This document shows positions 31,488 through 44,294 of a DNA stretch of 44,294 nt, in pieces (the stretch's first letter is position 1; the number at the start of each line of letters is the position of its first letter). The position numbers were made by a program, and so were the translations under genes. The notes beneath the pieces are model-generated. The model was not told where the DNA came from. It did not search any database and worked only from the letters and a program-made list of their open reading frames with translations. The stretch lies in NCBI GenBank assembly GCA_026414995.1, contig JAOAHY010000008.1, forward strand, positions 1-44,294, written 5' to 3'. The DNA is from Caldisericia bacterium. Its GTDB lineage: Bacteria; Caldisericota; Caldisericia; B22-G15.

Positions 31488-32156
31488 TTAGTATCTTGGT
31501 TTATGAGGATTTGTTTTTATAATTTTTCCTTCAAAAGCATAAATTGTTCTCTCACATAAATTTGTTATGTGGTCACCAATTCTTTCATAGTGTTGGCTAA
31601 TCTGAAGAAGCGCATTTGCTCTTTTTATATTTCTTGGGTCCTCAAGCATGTATGTTAATAGTTCTCTAAAAATTTGCGAATTTAGATCATCAATAAGGTC
31701 ATCTTCTTCAATTGTTATTTTACTTATCTCTATATCTTTTTCTAAAAATCCTTTAATTGCATTATCAAGCATTCTAATACATATATCTTTCATTCTTGGT
31801 AAATCTATTAAAGGTTTTAAATGTGGTTCATCTGCAATAGTCATAGTTATTTCAGCAATATCAACACAGTGATCTGCCATTCTCTCAAGGTCAATGTTAT
31901 CAAATAAAATTGCACTAATTGTTCTTAAACTTTCTGCCTTCGGATCTTGTGTTGCAATTATTTGAAGCGTTTCTTTTTCGAGTTCCATAGATTTTTCATC
32001 AATTAAGTCATCTCTATTAATTACTTCATTACACAAATTTTTATCTCTCTCTTTTAATGCTATAAAAGATTTTTCAATTTGATCTCTCACAATAAGTGAG
32101 AGGTTTACCAACTTCTCTTTTAAATATAAAATCTTCTTTTCTAAAATTTCACTCAT
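31488..32156 (-). CDS. phoU: Phosphate transport regulator PhoU
   Basis: Cytoplasmic regulator that links the Pst transporter to PhoR and shuts the Pho response down when phosphate is ample. The 222-residue protein is all helical, with two PhoU three-helix repeats. Each carries an E/D-rich metal motif: ILFDNIDLERMADHCVDIAE in the first and ALLQISQHYERIGDHITNLCE in the second. It is the last gene of the phoBR-pstSCAB-phoU operon, 18 nt after pstB, with AAGGAGAG upstream. Confidence 0.96.
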   Translation of the reverse strand: MSEILEKKILYLKEKLVNLSLIVRDQIEKSFIALKERDKNLCNEVINRDDLIDEKSMELEKETLQIIATQDPKAESLRTISAILFDNIDLERMADHCVDIAEITMTIADEPHLKPLIDLPRMKDICIRMLDNAIKGFLEKDIEISKITIEEDDLIDDLNSQIFRELLTYMLEDPRNIKRANALLQISQHYERIGDHITNLCERTIYAFEGKIIKTNPHKPRY

Positions 32157-32174: not shown

Positions 32175-32933
32175 TTATCCAATTTTACCAATAAGATACT
32201 CTTCTGTTTTTTTATTTTTTGGAACAGTAAACAAATCGGTTGTAGTTCCAAACTCAACTAAATCTCCAAGATAAAAGAATGCAGTATAATCAGATACTCT
32301 ACCTGCTTGTCCAATATTATGAGTTACTAATATAATAGTAACACTTTTTTTAAGTTCTATCATAAGTTCTTCAATTTTAAGAGTTGAAATTGGATCAAGA
32401 GCAGATGTTGGTTCATCTAAAAGCAAAATTTCTGGATTCATAGCAAGAGCTCTAGCAATACATAATCTTTGTTGTTGTCCTCCAGAAAGAAAAACTCCTC
32501 TTTTGAAGAGATTATCTTTTACCTCATCCCATAAACCACTTTTTTTGAGTGATTCTTCAACAATTCTATCTTTTTCTTCTTTTGAAAGTTTTACACCTGT
32601 TAAAATGTAACCTGCAATTACATTATCATAAATTGACATTGTTGGAAATGGATTTGGTTTTTGGAAAACCATACCTATTTTTTGTCTTACAATCATAGGG
32701 TCCATTTTGTATATATCTTCTCCATTCAAAAGAATTTCTCCCTCTACTCTTGCTTTAGGAACAAGTTCATGTAATCTATTAAGACATCTTATAAATGTAG
32801 TCTTGCCACAACCTGATGGTCCTAAAATTGAAGTTATTCTATTTCTGTAAATATCTAAATTTATATCATTTAAGACTTTATGTTCTCCAAAATAAGCATT
32901 TAAATTTTTAATTGATAAAATTACATTTTCCAT
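32175..32933 (-). CDS. pstB: Phosphate ABC transporter ATP-binding protein
   Basis: ATPase of the high-affinity phosphate importer, 252 residues, normal length. Walker A is [20 protein letters not shown]; the PstB-specific [18 protein letters not shown] is the Q-loop; signature [16 protein letters not shown]; Walker [33 protein letters not shown] is the switch region. It overlaps pstA by 13 nt, consistent with translational coupling. Confidence 0.98.
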
Positions 32934-33769
32934 CTTTTCTCCAAAAATCTTCCAATAATATTCATTGATAAAACAATTATAATTAAAATTATTGATGCTG
33001 CAAATGCTTGATTATGCCACTCCTTATATGGACTAGTTGCATAAACAAATATTACATAAGGAATTGTACTCATTGGTTTAAATATATTGAAATTTAAAAA
33101 TTGATTTCCAAATGCTGTGAATAAGAGAGGAGCAGTTTCACCCATTATTCTTGAAATTCCAAGTAAAATTCCTGTTACAATTCCAACAAATCCATAGGGC
33201 AAAAGAACCTTTAAAACAACTCTATAATATGGAGCACCAAGTGCAATTGCACCTTCTTTTATTTCTTGTGGAACCATGTTTAAAATCTCTTCAGTTGATT
33301 TGATAACAATTGGAAGCATCATAATAGCAAGTGCTACACTTCCAGATATAGCAGAAAAATGTTTCAGCGGTTTAACAACCCAAATGTAAGCAATTATACC
33401 CATAACAATTGATGGAATACCTTGGAGTGTATCAACTAAAATTTTTACAAATTCTGAAATTTTTGTCTCTTTAAATTCTGATAAGAAAACTCCAACAATA
33501 ATTCCAATTGGTATTGCAATTAAAGATGCAACTCCAACAATTATAAAACTTCCCACAATAGCATTTAAAATTCCACCCCCAGGTTCTCCAACTGGCCTAG
33601 GTAGAGAAATTATAAATCTTAAGTTTAAATATTTAAAACCTCTAATAAAAACAAAATAAATTATTAAAAATAAAGGAATTATTGAAAAATATGTAAAAAT
33701 TGTAACAATAGTTTTAAAAAATTTATCTTTTTTTATTCTACTTTCATAATCATGATGAGAAACATTCAT
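32921..33769 (-). CDS. pstA: Phosphate ABC transporter permease PstA
   Basis: Membrane subunit of the phosphate importer, 282 residues with six helices. [40 protein letters not shown] and the coupling loop [19 protein letters not shown] (EAA motif) are characteristic. It pairs with PstC. Gene order pstC-pstA-pstB is conserved; it starts 1 nt after pstC. Confidence 0.97.
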
Positions 33770-33770
33770 A

Positions 33771-34634
33771 TTAGAAAGAAACCTTTCTTATTATTATTCT
33801 TCCCAAAATATTAATAATAATTGAAATTAAGAAAAGAATTAAACCTATTTCAATTAAAGAAGAGAGATGTAAAGTTGAAGTTGCTTCTGTAAATTCATTT
33901 GCAATTAAACTCGCCATTGTTTGTCCAGGAGAAAATATGCTTGTTGGAATTCTATTTGCATTTCCTATTACCATCGTTACAGCCATTGTTTCACCAAATG
34001 CTCTTCCAAATGATAAGAGAAAGCCTCCAAAAATACCTTTAAATGAAAACGGAATAAGCACTCCTTTAATAACCTCAAATTGTGTTGCTCCAAGAGAAAT
34101 TGCACCTTCTTTTACCTCTTCAGGAACAAGAGAGAGTACCTCTTTTCCTATTGATGCTGAATATGGAATAATCATAATTGATAAAATCAAAGATGCAGTA
34201 AAAATCCCTACACCTATTGGTTGAATACCAGTTTTCATTTGTATATTTCTTATGAATGGTGCAAGAATAAATAGCCCCCAAACACCAATTACAACAGAAG
34301 GAATTCCAGCAATAAGCTCAATTAATGTTTGAATTAATTTTGAAATTGCTTTATTTTTTAAAATCTCAGATAAATAAATTGAAATAGAAAGCGAAAATGG
34401 TATTGTAATTAAAAGAGAAATAAAAGAAGTTAAAAGAGTTCCAATTATAAAAGGAACTGCTCCAAATTTTAGGTTGACAGGGTCCCACTCTTTTGTAAAA
34501 AGAAATTTTAATCCAAATTCTTTTAATGATGGGATTGATGAGAAAATAAGTGAAAGAAAAATCGCTGATAAAAGAAAAATCATTAAAATTCCACCAAGAA
34601 AAAGGACAATTTTAAAGACCCTGTCAACCTTCAT
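33771..34634 (-). CDS. pstC: Phosphate ABC transporter permease PstC
   Basis: Membrane subunit of the phosphate importer, 287 residues with six helices. FGAVPFIIGTLLTSFISLLI, LIELIAGIPSVVIGVWGLF and the EAA coupling loop LVPEEVKEGAISLGATQFE are diagnostic, as is GRAFGETMAVTMVIGNANR. It is 18 nt downstream of pstS and forms the channel with PstA. Confidence 0.97.
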   Translation of the reverse strand: MKVDRVFKIVLFLGGILMIFLLSAIFLSLIFSSIPSLKEFGLKFLFTKEWDPVNLKFGAVPFIIGTLLTSFISLLITIPFSLSISIYLSEILKNKAISKLIQTLIELIAGIPSVVIGVWGLFILAPFIRNIQMKTGIQPIGVGIFTASLILSIMIIPYSASIGKEVLSLVPEEVKEGAISLGATQFEVIKGVLIPFSFKGIFGGFLLSFGRAFGETMAVTMVIGNANRIPTSIFSPGQTMASLIANEFTEATSTLHLSSLIEIGLILFLISIIINILGRIIIRKVSF

Positions 34635-34652: not shown

Positions 34653-35717
34653 CTACTTTATTGGTTTTCCACCAAAGGTTATACTTTTAATATTTTCTTC
34701 ATTAATTTTTTTGACAGCATCTGGTATTTTTCCATATAAAAGTTGTTCATTGTATTCTTGTGCTTCACTATTCATCCATTTTAAAAGATTAAAAAGTGCT
34801 TTTGCTCTATTTAAATCTCTTCCACCATAATTTTGCTCTTTATAAACAATAATCCATGTGAAACTTGATATTGGATATCCATCTGGGTTATCTGTGTCAA
34901 CTATTGAAACTTTTGTATGTTTTGGAATTGAAACATTTGCTGCAGCAGAAACTGCTTTTAAATCTGGATTAACAAATTTACCAGATTTATTTCTAACCAT
35001 AGCATAAGGCATTCCATTTTGTTCTGCATAAATTTTTTCTACATAACCTATTGCACCTGGTGTTTGTTGTACAATACCTGCAACACCAGCATTTCCTTTA
35101 CCACCTAAACCAACTTTCCAATTAAGTGATTTGCCTTTTCCCATTTCATTTTTCCATGTTTCACTCACCCTTGAAAGATAGTCACTAAAAACAAAGGTTG
35201 TTCCACTTCCATCTGACCTATGAGCAACTGTTATATCTAAATTTGGTAATTGAATATCTGGATTTAGTGATGTTATTCTTGGATCATTCCATTTTGTAAT
35301 TTTTCCCATAAATATATCTGCAATTACATCTCCTGTAAGTTTTAATTTTGGGTTTCCTGGTAAATTATAAGTAACAACAACTGCTCCAAGAGCAACTGGT
35401 ATATGAATTATTTCTGCCCCTGCCTTTTTTTCTTCCTCATCTGTCATTGGTGCATCAGTTGCTCCAAAATCAACAACTTTTTCAATTAATTGTTGTATTC
35501 CACCACCAGATCCAATTCCTTGATAGTTTACTTTTACTAAACCTTGAGTTTTAGTGTTATAAACATCAAACCATTTTGTATAAAGTGGTTGCGGAAATGT
35601 AGCTCCTGCACCTAAAAGTTCAACTGGTTGTGCTTTTTCCTCTTTTTTACAACCATAAAAAGATAATAATGAAACAACTAGCCCTAAAATAATAAGGCTT
35701 AAAAGAAACTTTTTCAT
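34653..35717 (-). CDS. pstS: Phosphate-binding lipoprotein PstS
   Basis: Extracytoplasmic phosphate receptor, 354 residues. A lipoprotein signal (MKKFLLSLIILGLVVSLLS, lipobox LSFYGC, Cys about residue 22) is followed by ELLGAGATFPQPLYTKWFDV, VNYQGIGSGGGIQQLIEKVV (phosphate-binding Ser/Gly loop), FGATDAPMTDEE and VAHRSDGSGTTFVFSDYL, all phosphate ligands in the family. AGGAGG precedes the ATG, and a Pho box with 11-bp periodic TTAACA repeats lies 37-86 bp upstream. Confidence 0.98.
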   Translation of the reverse strand: MKKFLLSLIILGLVVSLLSFYGCKKEEKAQPVELLGAGATFPQPLYTKWFDVYNTKTQGLVKVNYQGIGSGGGIQQLIEKVVDFGATDAPMTDEEEKKAGAEIIHIPVALGAVVVTYNLPGNPKLKLTGDVIADIFMGKITKWNDPRITSLNPDIQLPNLDITVAHRSDGSGTTFVFSDYLSRVSETWKNEMGKGKSLNWKVGLGGKGNAGVAGIVQQTPGAIGYVEKIYAEQNGMPYAMVRNKSGKFVNPDLKAVSAAANVSIPKHTKVSIVDTDNPDGYPISSFTWIIVYKEQNYGGRDLNRAKALFNLLKWMNSEAQEYNEQLLYGKIPDAVKKINEENIKSITFGGKPIK

Positions 35718-35753
35718 AAAAACCTCCTAAATAGTTCTTTCACAATTAAATTT

Positions 35754-35803
35754 TTACAATTATCTGTTAACTAAAATTAATTTTTTTGTTAATTTTCTGT
35801 TAA
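35754..35803 (-). promoter_or_regulatory. Pho box upstream of pstS, overlapping the end of phoR
   Basis: On the minus strand, hexamers start every 11 bp: TTAACA (complement of 35798-35803), TTAACA (35787-35792), ATTAAT (35776-35781), TTAACA (35765-35770) and TTGTAA (35754-35759). Three are identical and two are degenerate. This matches the Bacillus PhoP-type site, TT(A/C/T)A(C/T)A repeats with 5-bp spacers. The first two hexamers lie within or across the last codons and the TAA of phoR. A -10 candidate TTTAAT (complement of 35745-35750) follows. Confidence 0.85.
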
Positions 35804-37528
35804 ATTTTGAGGAAGTGTGATTTTAAATTTACTTCCTTTACCTAATTCGCTTTCAACATCGATTTTACCTTTATGAAGAGAAATTATATGTTTAACAATA
35901 GAAAGACCAAGGCCAGTTCCACCAGTTTTTCTTGATCTTGATTTATTAACAACATAAAATCTTTCAAAAATTCTATTCAAATGTTCTTTAGGAATTCCAA
36001 TTCCACTATCTTCAATTTCAAATATTGCATTTTCACTATCTTTTGAAAAAGTTATTTTTATATAACCTTTATCTGTATAATTTATTGCATTATCTAATAA
36101 ATTAATTAATGCTTGTTCAATTTTAAACTCATCTCCCCAAATTGTTGTATCATCTGATTTTATATCTACTATAACTTGAAGGTTCTTTTCTTTAATTTTA
36201 TTCTCAAATATTTTCAGAGTGTATTGTATAGTTTCTTTAAAATCAAATTTTTTTATTTCAAACTCTCTTTTCTCCTCTAATTTTGATAGAGTTAAAAGAT
36301 CATTTATAATATTAATCATTCTATCAATATTTCTTTTTATTATTTCTAAATAATTTTTGCTTTTAATTTCATCCTCAATTGTTTCTATAAAACCTTTTAT
36401 TGCCGTAATAGGTGTTTTTAACTCGTGTGATGCATCTTTTACAAAATCTCTTTTTATTTCTTCAAATTTTTTAATAGAGGTTATATCAAATATTGAAAAT
36501 ACCTTCTCTTTTGTTTTTTCAATTGAATTTTTACAAATTAAATAAAATTTATTTAATTTTTCAAACTCCAATTTTTCATAAGAGTCATTTTTTAAGCCTT
36601 CTTTAATAAAATTAATAATATCTAAATCTTTTATTATTTCCCAATAATATTTTTTTAAAACATTTTTTTCGTTAAAAAATTCTTCAAATTTTTTATTTGC
36701 AAATGTAATTTTACCCTGAGAGTCTATTACAAATATAACTTCACCAGTAGAAGTAAGAATTGAATTTAATCTTTCTCTATCTAATTCAACTTGAGTTAAG
36801 AGATTTTCAATTCTTTCTCCAAGAACATTTATATTTTCTCCTAACTCTTTAAACTCATCTTCTCTTAAAATAATCTTTTCTTTGTAATCTCCTGAGAGAA
36901 GTTTTGAAATTTTTAATTTAATAAGTTCTAGAGATTCTTTTAAATTTTTTGAATAAAGATAAAAGATATAAAAACCTATTAATAGTGAAATAATTGATAT
37001 TAAAGCAATTTCAAAAATAAGCATAATAATAACATTATTTAATTCTTTTAAAGATAAACTTACTCTTGAGATATAAATTTCATTATTTATATTTATTGGA
37101 ACAGCAATATAAAGCATATCCTCTTTTGTGGAAGTTGAAAATCTAATAGATTTACCTATATTCCCATTTAATGCTTCAATTATTTCTGGTCTTGTTTTAT
37201 GATTCTCCATTGTTTCAATATCCAAAATTGAATCTCCAAGAACAACTCCATTTTTATCAATAATTGTTATTCTAAAACCCTTAAGAGTTCTAATTTTCTT
37301 TACAAAATTATCTATTTCTTCAATTTTATTTGATTCAACAAGATTTTTAACCTCTTCTGAAATTGAATTAGCAATCATAATTAAATTAGATTCATAACTC
37401 TTAATAAATTCTCTTCTTATATAAATTGATGATATTGAGAGAATTAAAATAAATGAAATTAAAATTGATATTAAAATTTCTCTAATTAATTTTTTCTGTA
37501 GATTACTCTTCTTCAAATTTATATCCAA
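35789..37528 (-). CDS. phoR: Phosphate-responsive sensor histidine kinase PhoR
   Basis: Sensor kinase of 579 residues. Order: transmembrane helix 1 (about 17-37), extracytoplasmic sensor domain (about 38-162), transmembrane helix 2 (about 163-192), HAMP (about 192-245), PAS (about 255-350), HisKA with DASHELKTPITAIKGF (His368) and the ATPase domain (LLDNAINYTDKG, EIEDSGIGIPKEH, FERFYVVNKSR, TGGTGLGLSIVK). Context makes it PhoR: it lies between phoB (26-nt overlap) and pstS. Its last codons contain the first Pho box hexamers, so the pstS control region is built into its coding end. Confidence 0.94.
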   Translation of the reverse strand: MDINLKKSNLQKKLIREILISILISFILILSISSIYIRREFIKSYESNLIMIANSISEEVKNLVESNKIEEIDNFVKKIRTLKGFRITIIDKNGVVLGDSILDIETMENHKTRPEIIEALNGNIGKSIRFSTSTKEDMLYIAVPININNEIYISRVSLSLKELNNVIIMLIFEIALISIISLLIGFYIFYLYSKNLKESLELIKLKISKLLSGDYKEKIILREDEFKELGENINVLGERIENLLTQVELDRERLNSILTSTGEVIFVIDSQGKITFANKKFEEFFNEKNVLKKYYWEIIKDLDIINFIKEGLKNDSYEKLEFEKLNKFYLICKNSIEKTKEKVFSIFDITSIKKFEEIKRDFVKDASHELKTPITAIKGFIETIEDEIKSKNYLEIIKRNIDRMINIINDLLTLSKLEEKREFEIKKFDFKETIQYTLKIFENKIKEKNLQVIVDIKSDDTTIWGDEFKIEQALINLLDNAINYTDKGYIKITFSKDSENAIFEIEDSGIGIPKEHLNRIFERFYVVNKSRSRKTGGTGLGLSIVKHIISLHKGKIDVESELGKGSKFKITLPQNLTEN

Positions 37529-38180
37529 CTCCTCTCACATTTTTAATTAAATTTCCATAACTTTTTAATTTATCTCTTAGATGTTTTATATGAACATCAA
37601 TAGTTCTATCAATAACAATCTTATCCATTCCCCATAATATATCCAAAAGTTCTTCTCTTGAAAGAACTTCACCTTTTCTTTTATAAAGTGTTAGTAAAAT
37701 ATTAAATTCGGTTTTAGTTAAATCAATCTCCTCATCATTAATAAAAACTTTATACTTTTTTGGATAAATAATGAAATTTTCATTTATTTTTATTTTTTCC
37801 TCCTCTTTAATATGTTTTGTCCTTCTTAATAAAGCCTTTACTCTTGCTAAAAGCTCTCTTACTGAAAATGGTTTTACAATATAATCATCTCCTCCTATTT
37901 CAAAACCAACAACTTTATCTATTTCACTTCCCTTTGCTGTTAATATTATAACAGGTGTATTTGGATATTTATCTTTAATCAATTTTATAAGTTCGAACCC
38001 CTCAATATCTGGAAGCATAAGATCTATAATCATTAGATCAAATTTCTCCTTTTCTAATGCTTTAAGAGCACTTAGTCCATTTTCAAAAAGATATGTTTTA
38101 TAACCTGAATTCTTCAAGTTAATATCAATAAGATCTAAAATGTCTCTTTCATCATCAACTATTCCAATTTTTCCATTCAT
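37503..38180 (-). CDS. phoB: Phosphate regulon response regulator PhoB/PhoP
   Basis: OmpR-family regulator of 225 residues. Receiver: IGIVDDERDIL (D9, D10), phospho-acceptor D53 in MIIDLMLPDIEGFE, VIILTAKGSE and the Lys in DYIVKPFSVRELLARV. The winged-helix output ends HIKHLRDKLKSYGNLIKNVRGVGYKFEEE. ATG 38180 is chosen over TTG 38201, because the TATAAT at 38193-38198 (complement) would otherwise lie inside the gene and receiver domains usually start 4-6 residues before this strand. It should bind the Pho box before pstS. Confidence 0.95.
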   Translation of the reverse strand: MNGKIGIVDDERDILDLIDINLKNSGYKTYLFENGLSALKALEKEKFDLMIIDLMLPDIEGFELIKLIKDKYPNTPVIILTAKGSEIDKVVGFEIGGDDYIVKPFSVRELLARVKALLRRTKHIKEEEKIKINENFIIYPKKYKVFINDEEIDLTKTEFNILLTLYKRKGEVLSREELLDILWGMDKIVIDRTIDVHIKHLRDKLKSYGNLIKNVRGVGYKFEEE

Positions 38181-38226
38181 TTTCTTAATAAAATTATACA
38201 ATTTCTTTTATGTTAAAATTTAAAAT

Positions 38227-42862: not shown

Positions 42863-44294
42863 ATGGATAAAAATATAAATCTTACACCTCAAGCAAAACT
42901 CGTTCTTGAAAAAAGATACCTTAAAAAAAATGAGAAAGGTGAGGTAATTGAAACACCTTTTGAATTATTTGAGAGAGTAGCAAGAGTAATCTCAAATATT
43001 GATAGAATTTATAACAAAGATGTAGATATTGAAAAAGTATTTGAAGAATTTTTAAATATGATGGTAAATTTAGAATTTTTACCAAATTCACCAACACTTA
43101 TGAATGCAGGTAGAGAATTAGGAATTCTTTCTGCTTGTTTTGTTCTCCCAGTTGGTGATTCTTTAACAGAAATTTTTGATGCGGTAAAATACACAGCTTT
43201 AATCCACCAATCAGGAGGCGGAACAGGGTTTTCTTTTTCAAAATTAAGACCTAAAGGTGATATTGTGAAATCAACTATGGGTGTTGCATCAGGTCCTCTC
43301 TCATTTATGGAGGTTTTTGATAAAGCAACTGAAACAATAAAACAGGGTGGAGTAAGACGTGGTGCAAATATGGGAATCTTAAGAGTTGACCATCCAGATA
43401 TTTTAGATTTTATAACAGCAAAAGATAAAGAAGGTGTTTTAACAAACTTTAATATTTCTGTAGCAATAACAGATTATTTTATGAATAAATATTTTAATGA
43501 TGAAGAATATGAATTAATAAATCCAAGAGATGGGAGAATTTGGAAAAAATTAAAAGCAAGAGAAGTTTTCGAGCTAATTGTTGAACACGCTTGGAAGAGT
43601 GGAGACCCAGGAGTCATTTTTATAGATAATATAAACAAGAAAAACCCAACTCCTCATCTTGGAGAAATAGAATCAACAAACCCATGTGTTGTAGGAGATA
43701 CATTAGTTTATACAGAAAGAGGTTTAATTAAAGCCAAGAATTTACAAAAAGGTTTAAAAGTTTGGGGTGGAGATGGTTGGAATGAAATTACTGAGGTTAT
43801 TAATAATGGGGTTCAAAAAGTTGATAAAATAATTATAGAATCTGGACTTAATTTAAGAATCACAAAAGACCATAAATTACTTACTGAGAATGGTTGGAAA
43901 AAACTAGAAGAAATAGAAAAAGGAGATAAAGTTTTTGTTCCATTAAATATGCCTGAGATCAAATCCAAAGATATAGATCTTGAATTTTATGAACTATTAG
44001 GTTATTTTTTAGGTGATGGCTCTTTAAGTAATACTAATCATATAACTCTTCATGTTGGAAATGAAAAGGAGCTAATTAAATATTTTTCACCAATTCTTAA
44101 AAAATATTCTGGTTCATCTTATGTTATTGAAAGAGATAATCAATATATATTAGACACCCATAGAAAAAACTTTGCTGATAAATTTAGAGAAATTTTTAAT
44201 ATTGAAATTTCTAATGCGCCAGAAAAATTTATACCTGATAAACTGCTTGAAAATGGAACTGATGCAATAAAGTCAATTTTAAGAGGCTTATTTA
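42863..44294 (+). CDS. nrdJ: Class II (adenosylcobalamin-dependent) ribonucleotide reductase, intein-interrupted, partial
   Basis: Reduces ribonucleotides to deoxyribonucleotides using adenosylcobalamin. The first 274 residues are extein: LEFLPNSPTLMNAGRELG, then LSACFVLPVGDS with the first redox Cys, IHQSGGGTGFSFSKLRP, GVASGPLSFMEVFDKATE, KQGGVRRGANMGILRVDHPD and SGDPGVIFIDNINKKN. It then reaches STNP, where the catalytic NPC(G/E) motif should continue; instead an intein starts at nt 43685. The remaining extein and the intein end lie outside the window. Shine-Dalgarno AAGGAGG. With no class I or III genes seen, this may be the main reductase (inference). Confidence 0.93.
   Translation, partial: MDKNINLTPQAKLVLEKRYLKKNEKGEVIETPFELFERVARVISNIDRIYNKDVDIEKVFEEFLNMMVNLEFLPNSPTLMNAGRELGILSACFVLPVGDSLTEIFDAVKYTALIHQSGGGTGFSFSKLRPKGDIVKSTMGVASGPLSFMEVFDKATETIKQGGVRRGANMGILRVDHPDILDFITAKDKEGVLTNFNISVAITDYFMNKYFNDEEYELINPRDGRIWKKLKAREVFELIVEHAWKSGDPGVIFIDNINKKNPTPHLGEIESTNPCVVGDTLVYTERGLIKAKNLQKGLKVWGGDGWNEITEVINNGVQKVDKIIIESGLNLRITKDHKLLTENGWKKLEEIEKGDKVFVPLNMPEIKSKDIDLEFYELLGYFLGDGSLSNTNHITLHVGNEKELIKYFSPILKKYSGSSYVIERDNQYILDTHRKNFADKFREIFNIEISNAPEKFIPDKLLENGTDAIKSILRGLF
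43685..44294 (+). mobile_element. Intein with LAGLIDADG homing endonuclease in nrdJ (partial)
   Basis: An in-frame protein intron begins after STNP with Cys1. Splicing block A is CVVGDTLVYTERGLIKAKNL; block B, with the catalytic Thr/His pattern, is LRITKDHKLLTENGWKKLEE. The homing endonuclease motif LLGYFLGDGSL (residues about 378-388, nt 43994-44026) is the first LAGLIDADG-type block. The C-terminal splicing block and the +1 extein residue lie beyond the edge. Insertion immediately before the catalytic Cys of NPC means the enzyme is inactive until splicing. Confidence 0.93.

Follow-up and report, generated by a model that had tools for sequence, protein, structure and literature searches.

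A probable four-register Pho box spans the end of phoR upstream of pstS in a Caldisericia bacterium and recurs in its relatives

The DNA analyzed here, hereafter called the window, is a stretch of 44,294 nucleotides from the genome of a Caldisericia bacterium. Its minus strand carries a phosphate uptake cluster in the order phoB-like, phoR-like, pstS, pstC, pstA, pstB and phoU (Table 1). Among titled records, the nearest relatives of PstS were found in a "Caldisericota bacterium" MAG (77% identity) and in another bacterial MAG (78%). The regulator has the Response_reg plus Trans_reg_C domain order of PhoB, and the sequence of its DNA-binding domain resembles the Escherichia coli PhoB structures 3t72, 1qqi and 1gxp (E 7e-15 to 8e-15). 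ArlR (E 9e-18) and YycF (3e-15) match this domain no worse than PhoB does, and the best full-length matches of the regulator are RegX3 and BaeR. The regulator scored below the PhoB cut-offs (222.1 against 270 for NF053854 and 209.6 against 296.2 for TIGR02154), as did the kinase below those for PhoR and PnpS (276.5 against 334.2 for TIGR02966 and 345.3 against 400 for NF046044). Because these phosphate-specific NCBIfam cut-offs were not reached and ArlR and YycF match at least as well, the naming of the two proteins rests on gene context. The ATG at 38180 is the likelier start of the regulator gene, which then shares about 46 bp with a divergent sirtuin-like gene (38227). Inspected by eye, the region upstream of phoB (38181-38226) holds one TTAACA and a TATAAT on the minus strand and no array.

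Table 1 Features of the phoBR-pst cluster and of the repeat array, in window coordinates
Feature	Position	Strand	Remarks
phoB/phoP-type response regulator	37503..38201	-	Response_reg + Trans_reg_C
phoR-type sensor kinase	35789..37528	-	single-Cache-like, PAS, HisKA, HATPase_c
Pho box unit 1, TTAACA	35798..35803	-	Leu-Thr codons near phoR end
Pho box unit 2, TTAACA	35787..35792	-	TAA at 35791-35789 is the phoR stop codon
Register 3, ATTAAT	35776..35781	-	2/6; decayed in the source genome
Pho box unit 4, TTAACA	35765..35770	-	promoter-proximal
Claimed fifth unit, TTGTAA	35754..35759	-	3/6; unsupported; overlaps the predicted -10
Predicted -10, AAAAAT	35750..35755	-	9 bp after unit 4; weak (4/6)
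Shine-Dalgarno of pstS, AGGAGG	35723..35728	-	by eye
pstS, phosphate-binding protein	34653..35717	-	TIGR00975, 383.6 bits, cut-off 205
pstC permease	33771..34634	-	NCBIfam cut-off passed
pstA permease	32921..33769	-	NCBIfam cut-off passed
pstB ATPase	32175..32933	-	NCBIfam cut-off passed
phoU	31488..32156	-	NCBIfam cut-off passed

On the upstream side of pstS the minus strand reads TTAACA-GAAAA-TTAACA-AAAAA-ATTAAT-TTTAG-TTAACA-GATAATTGT-AAAAAT; on an 11-bp lattice, registers 1, 2 and 4 are perfect TTAACA hexamers. An earlier note on this DNA had described a Pho box of five units here, three of them identical. The three identical hexamers and their exact 11-bp register were borne out, and the count of five was not: registers 3 and 5 match TTAACA at two and three of six positions. 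Moving register 3 by one base yields TTAATT (4/6), but the exact pitch is then lost. Background registers in relatives average 1.8-1.9 matches of six, so the matches of registers 3 and 5 in the source genome differ little from chance. The 18/18 match at registers 1, 2 and 4 occurs once in the window, both strands considered. In 200 first-order Markov resamples of the window this score was never reached (best 16), nor was the four-register sum of 20. The five-register sum of 23, taken alone, was met by four of the 200, and the upstream region has a GC content of 0.25, as would be expected if chance repeats or phased A-tracts in AT-rich DNA had produced the array.

Conservation contradicts an origin by chance. 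TTAACA-N5-TTAACA-N16-TTAAC is found at pstS in all five genomes of the family, the source genome among them, and the TTAACA of unit 1 is present in 5/5. G047, a member of another family, has TTAACC, TAAACA, TTAATG and TTAACA at four registers with a pitch of 11. All six genomes aligned (6/6) keep C5, the hexamer's sole G/C position, in units 1, 2 and 4, and arrays also occur in upstream regions with GC contents of 0.43-0.49 (for example G005 and G050), so that chance repeats or A-tracts retain a negligible probability. At register 3, relatives have TTTATA (G001-G003), TTAATG (G047 and G014) or TTAAAA (G005).

The survey covered 54 genomes of the phylum. A pst gene was taken up in 45 of these and nine were left out (G010, G013, G016, G018, G019, G022, G029, G037 and G048); 45 pst upstream regions, from 44 genomes, were read, with start codons picked by hand. 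A control set of 32 regions was formed without 13 regions of family f3 and without the second gene of G047 (score 19, start uncertain), and with G043 added. In the left-out family f3, 2 of 13 regions (G024 and G025) reach a score of 17. A genus set held one genome for each of 19 genera. The frames upstream were histidine kinases in nine of the ten tested, the exception being G045, and the pst upstream region of G014 scores 21. Across the 32 regions, TTAACA at pitch 11 ranked first of 4096 hexamers (mean best score 18.38), against a top score for any hexamer of 14.47-15.25 at pitches 9, 10, 12 and 13. Scores of at least 18 were obtained in 22/32 regions at pitch 11, in one at pitch 8 and in none at the remaining pitches from 7 to 16. 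In the genus set, 14/19 genomes attained this score at pitch 11, and pitches 8-10 and 12-14 each gave 0/19. Of 810 other segments taken from these loci, one scored as high; five genera fell under 18 (G006, G053, G042, G051 and G046). A short-pattern scan of the 54 genomes gave 21 matches against 43 for the reversed control, and by count the pattern is therefore not enriched. Thirteen of the 21, and all eight without a mismatch, sit upstream of a pst gene, some of them in genomes with a pst binding protein of another family, TIGR02136. The pst sites are set apart solely by exactness and location, not by pattern count.

The anatomy of the element was read from the 26 of the 32 genomes with a four-register score of at least 17. 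Mean matches of six at registers 1 to 4 were 4.88, 5.31, 4.00 and 5.04, values raised by the selection, and at the unselected registers 0, 5 and 6 they were 1.85, 1.88 and 1.81. The fifth unit was accordingly rejected, register 5 averaging the same as the empty registers on either side. By hand count, register 3 is the sole weakest in 15/26 and tied in 2/26; another register is weakest in 9/26, for example the first in G008, G009, G011 and G012. A TATAAT-like hexamer (at least 4/6) lies 9 bp past register 4 in 17/26, compared with 0-4/26 at each of the remaining offsets from 2 to 19, and the peak is the same with the 14 high-scoring genera. The counterpart of the weak source-genome hexamer is TATAAT in G001 and TATAGT in G002 and G003. 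Because registers 0, 5 and 6 are at background and the -10 peak falls at offset 9, the element consists of four registers and a -10 at a fixed distance. Pho boxes stand at a set distance of about 10 bp from the -10, and this element does too, with a weak hexamer in the source genome. A -10-like hexamer behind unit 4, together with the single base by which unit 4 differs from TTGACA, would also suit an ordinary constitutive promoter whose -35 is mimicked by TTAACA. However, the -10 follows unit 4 after 9 bp and not after about 17, phased copies would be superfluous, and the pitch of 11 holds across genera. A constitutive -35 was rejected on the spacing, which leaves this explanation largely refuted and highly improbable.

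In Bacillus subtilis, PhoP boxes consist of four repeats of TT(A/C)ACA-like hexamers about 11 bp apart, and by this description they are like the present array of TTAACA-like hexamers. The earlier note had likened the array to that of Bacillus PhoP; a site for a tandem array of an OmpR/PhoB-family regulator is well supported, and E. coli pstS shows this geometry too. There, in strain K-12, CTGTCAT, CTGTCAT, CTTACAT and CTGTCAC follow one another at pitch 11. The E. coli site shares with the present one four direct repeats, the pitch, a weaker third repeat (CTTACAT), a pst operon and a PhoB-family regulator, and differs in its repeat (CTGTCAT instead of TTAACA) and in the upstream gene (glmS instead of phoR). 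The limit of four registers is not clear-cut in E. coli, because the third register and the one after the fourth, TTGTCCT, match the consensus equally well (5/7 each). Published work puts 10 bp between the E. coli tandem repeats and the -10 downstream of them (PMC1906773), describes two 11-nt direct repeats per box with head-to-tail binding and similar features in B. subtilis (PMC4415409), and concludes that PhoB activates pstS via RNA polymerase recruitment, with structural models supporting a strict spacing to the core promoter (PMC10294691). Cyanobacterial SphR Pho boxes, as described in PMC1906773, share the pitch of 11 (tandem 8-bp repeats with a 3-bp linker) and differ in belonging to another phylum and in a footprinted profile with two repeats.

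The element is very probably a known kind of control site, a four-register Pho box with a decayed third register. Its direct repeats recur every 11 bp and precede pstS, a phosphate-starvation gene, and the same layout is seen in many relatives. With a probability of about 0.92, it is the site at the phoBR end from which the phosphate-starvation regulator activates pstSCAB-phoU. Against this reading stand the poor -10 of the source genome (AAAAAT), the low scores in family f3 and in five of 19 genera, a regulator and a kinase under their phosphate-specific cut-offs, and pattern counts that are hardly or not enriched. The array could alternatively serve the co-encoded OmpR-family regulator under a signal other than phosphate limitation, as a WalR- or VanR-like system beside pst would. 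WalR sites are likewise TT-rich hexamer repeats, the NCBIfam scores of the regulator are close (PhoB-type 222, VanR-type 207 and YycF 200, each below its cut-off), and the ArlR and YycF DNA-binding domains match it as well as PhoB does. Such a signal is nevertheless very unlikely, given that the array recurs before pst binding-protein genes across families, that the operon closes with phoU, and that pattern scans of the genome and a profile scored on 150 of 3692 candidates revealed no other convincing site.

From the array, its conservation and its gene context we infer the following course for a phosphate-starvation Pho box. Under phosphate limitation, PhoR would phosphorylate the PhoB-type regulator of its own cluster, whose winged-helix domains would bind head-to-tail, one per 11-bp repeat, on a single face of the DNA. 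The pair nearest the promoter would occupy the place of the -35 and recruit RNA polymerase to the -10 that begins 9 bp past register 4, so that pst would be switched on from a promoter inside the cluster. Register 3, decayed in the source lineage, would presumably be occupied cooperatively.

The phoR gene ends in ..CAA AAT TTA ACA GAA AAT TAA, its stop beginning 12 bases past the first base of unit 1, and the reading frame confirms the statement of the earlier note that the first two hexamers lie inside the final codons and the TAA of phoR. Its further point, that coding end and control site share bases, is true of the source genome, but the offset between the two varies among relatives. Measured from the first base of register 1 to the start of the stop codon in genomes scoring at least 17, the offset is +12 in G000, G004 and, from another family, G043; +1 in G001, G014, G015 and G050; +23 in G017; +5 in G007; and +2 in G008, G009 and G011, all with a weak first register. 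It is -4 in G002 and G003, -5 in G047, -7 in G005, -9 in G049, -14 in G012, -32 in G038-G041, -50 in G044, -74 in G045 and about -120 in G020 and G021. Within the family alone the values are +12, +12, -4, -4 and +1. Across relatives the stop position shifts and the box stays.

A TTAACA hexamer carries TAA from its second base. A step of 11 bp is not divisible by 3, so the frame of this TAA changes from one unit to the next, and units 1, 2 and 3 cover three frames. Where units 1-3 all contain TTAA, each of the three frames is closed (for example in G005, G014, G015 and G017); in the source genome, with register 3 decayed, units 1, 2 and 4 close two of the three. A phoR frame entering the box would often terminate there, since the TTAA units hold TAA in differing frames. 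In 8 of the 26 good-array genomes, from four families, the upstream frame ends at the TAA inside one of the box units. Control site and coding end share bases because box TAAs in different frames end phoR; the overlap is explained by arithmetic and does not require selection. This frame argument offers a simple explanation for operators extending over the ends of genes. It is unlikely that selection acts on the box in a double role, with the regulator array also stopping phoR translation in several frames; the odds are lowered because the perfect units here close two frames only. If this reading were true, an operator might encroach on an upstream gene without penalty. The same bases could also be read as a terminator or hairpin of phoR, for in the window the TTAAC of unit 2 has, by eye, an inverted copy in the GTTAA that overlaps unit 4. 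The G before unit 4 is missing in G001-G004 and G047 (ATTAAC or CTTAAC), so it is the direct repeats and not the palindrome that are conserved; the hairpin was rejected on this ground, and its probability is negligible.

The earlier note had also proposed the motif for a search of further Pho-regulon genes. The scan was run and, with patterns and with a profile scored on 150 of 3692 candidates, gave no second convincing site in the genome. A single exact copy of the three-hexamer pattern is present in the 1.27-Mb sequence, and the next best match has two mismatches. With up to two mismatches, the three-unit pattern gave 3 matches against 0 for the reversed control in the source genome and 11 against 9 in the five family genomes; with up to three, it gave 20 against 17 in the source genome, the last two comparisons showing hardly any enrichment. 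TTAACA-N5-TTAACA with at most one mismatch showed no excess in the genome (34 sites against 42). In each of the five family genomes a match with zero or one mismatch lies solely at pstS. A profile scored 32.6 bits at the pstS box and 14.4 bits at the next of 31 other matches; the 14 of these 31 second-tier matches that were read each overlap an open frame of at least 150 codons. With this number of candidates scored and the runner-up by pattern absent from its output, the profile scan was not exhaustive, and sites with fewer or weaker repeats would escape it. Within these limits, one operon with such an array was seen in the source genome. Two runners-up with two mismatches were rejected. By eye, C1:88702-88740 lies over a frame start in a ribosomal-protein-type gene cluster, and C4:75922-75960 (L143, G000) is intergenic, upstream of a glycosyltransferase-like gene; the sole family ortholog of the latter (one of four other genomes, G004) has a 12-bp step between its first two hexamers and no array.

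Among the matches listed from the open-licence literature, no Pho-regulon study of this phylum was found and no paper was titled for a Pho box over a phoR stop. The results provide an operator consensus and a promoter layout for the phosphate response of this phylum, to which the little-studied source bacterium belongs. Because relatives repeatedly show a layout resembling the one at E. coli pstS, the role of the weak repeat is testable by swaps. In family f3, two or three pstS-like genes stand in tandem in many genomes (L101-L108, for example G036:C19:46932-50828), and in G024 and G025 the box-like array follows the stop of a preceding pstS-like gene, not of phoR. Elsewhere in the window, a ribonucleotide reductase-like frame on the plus strand (42863-44293) is cut by the window end, and its translation contains what by eye appears to be an intein.
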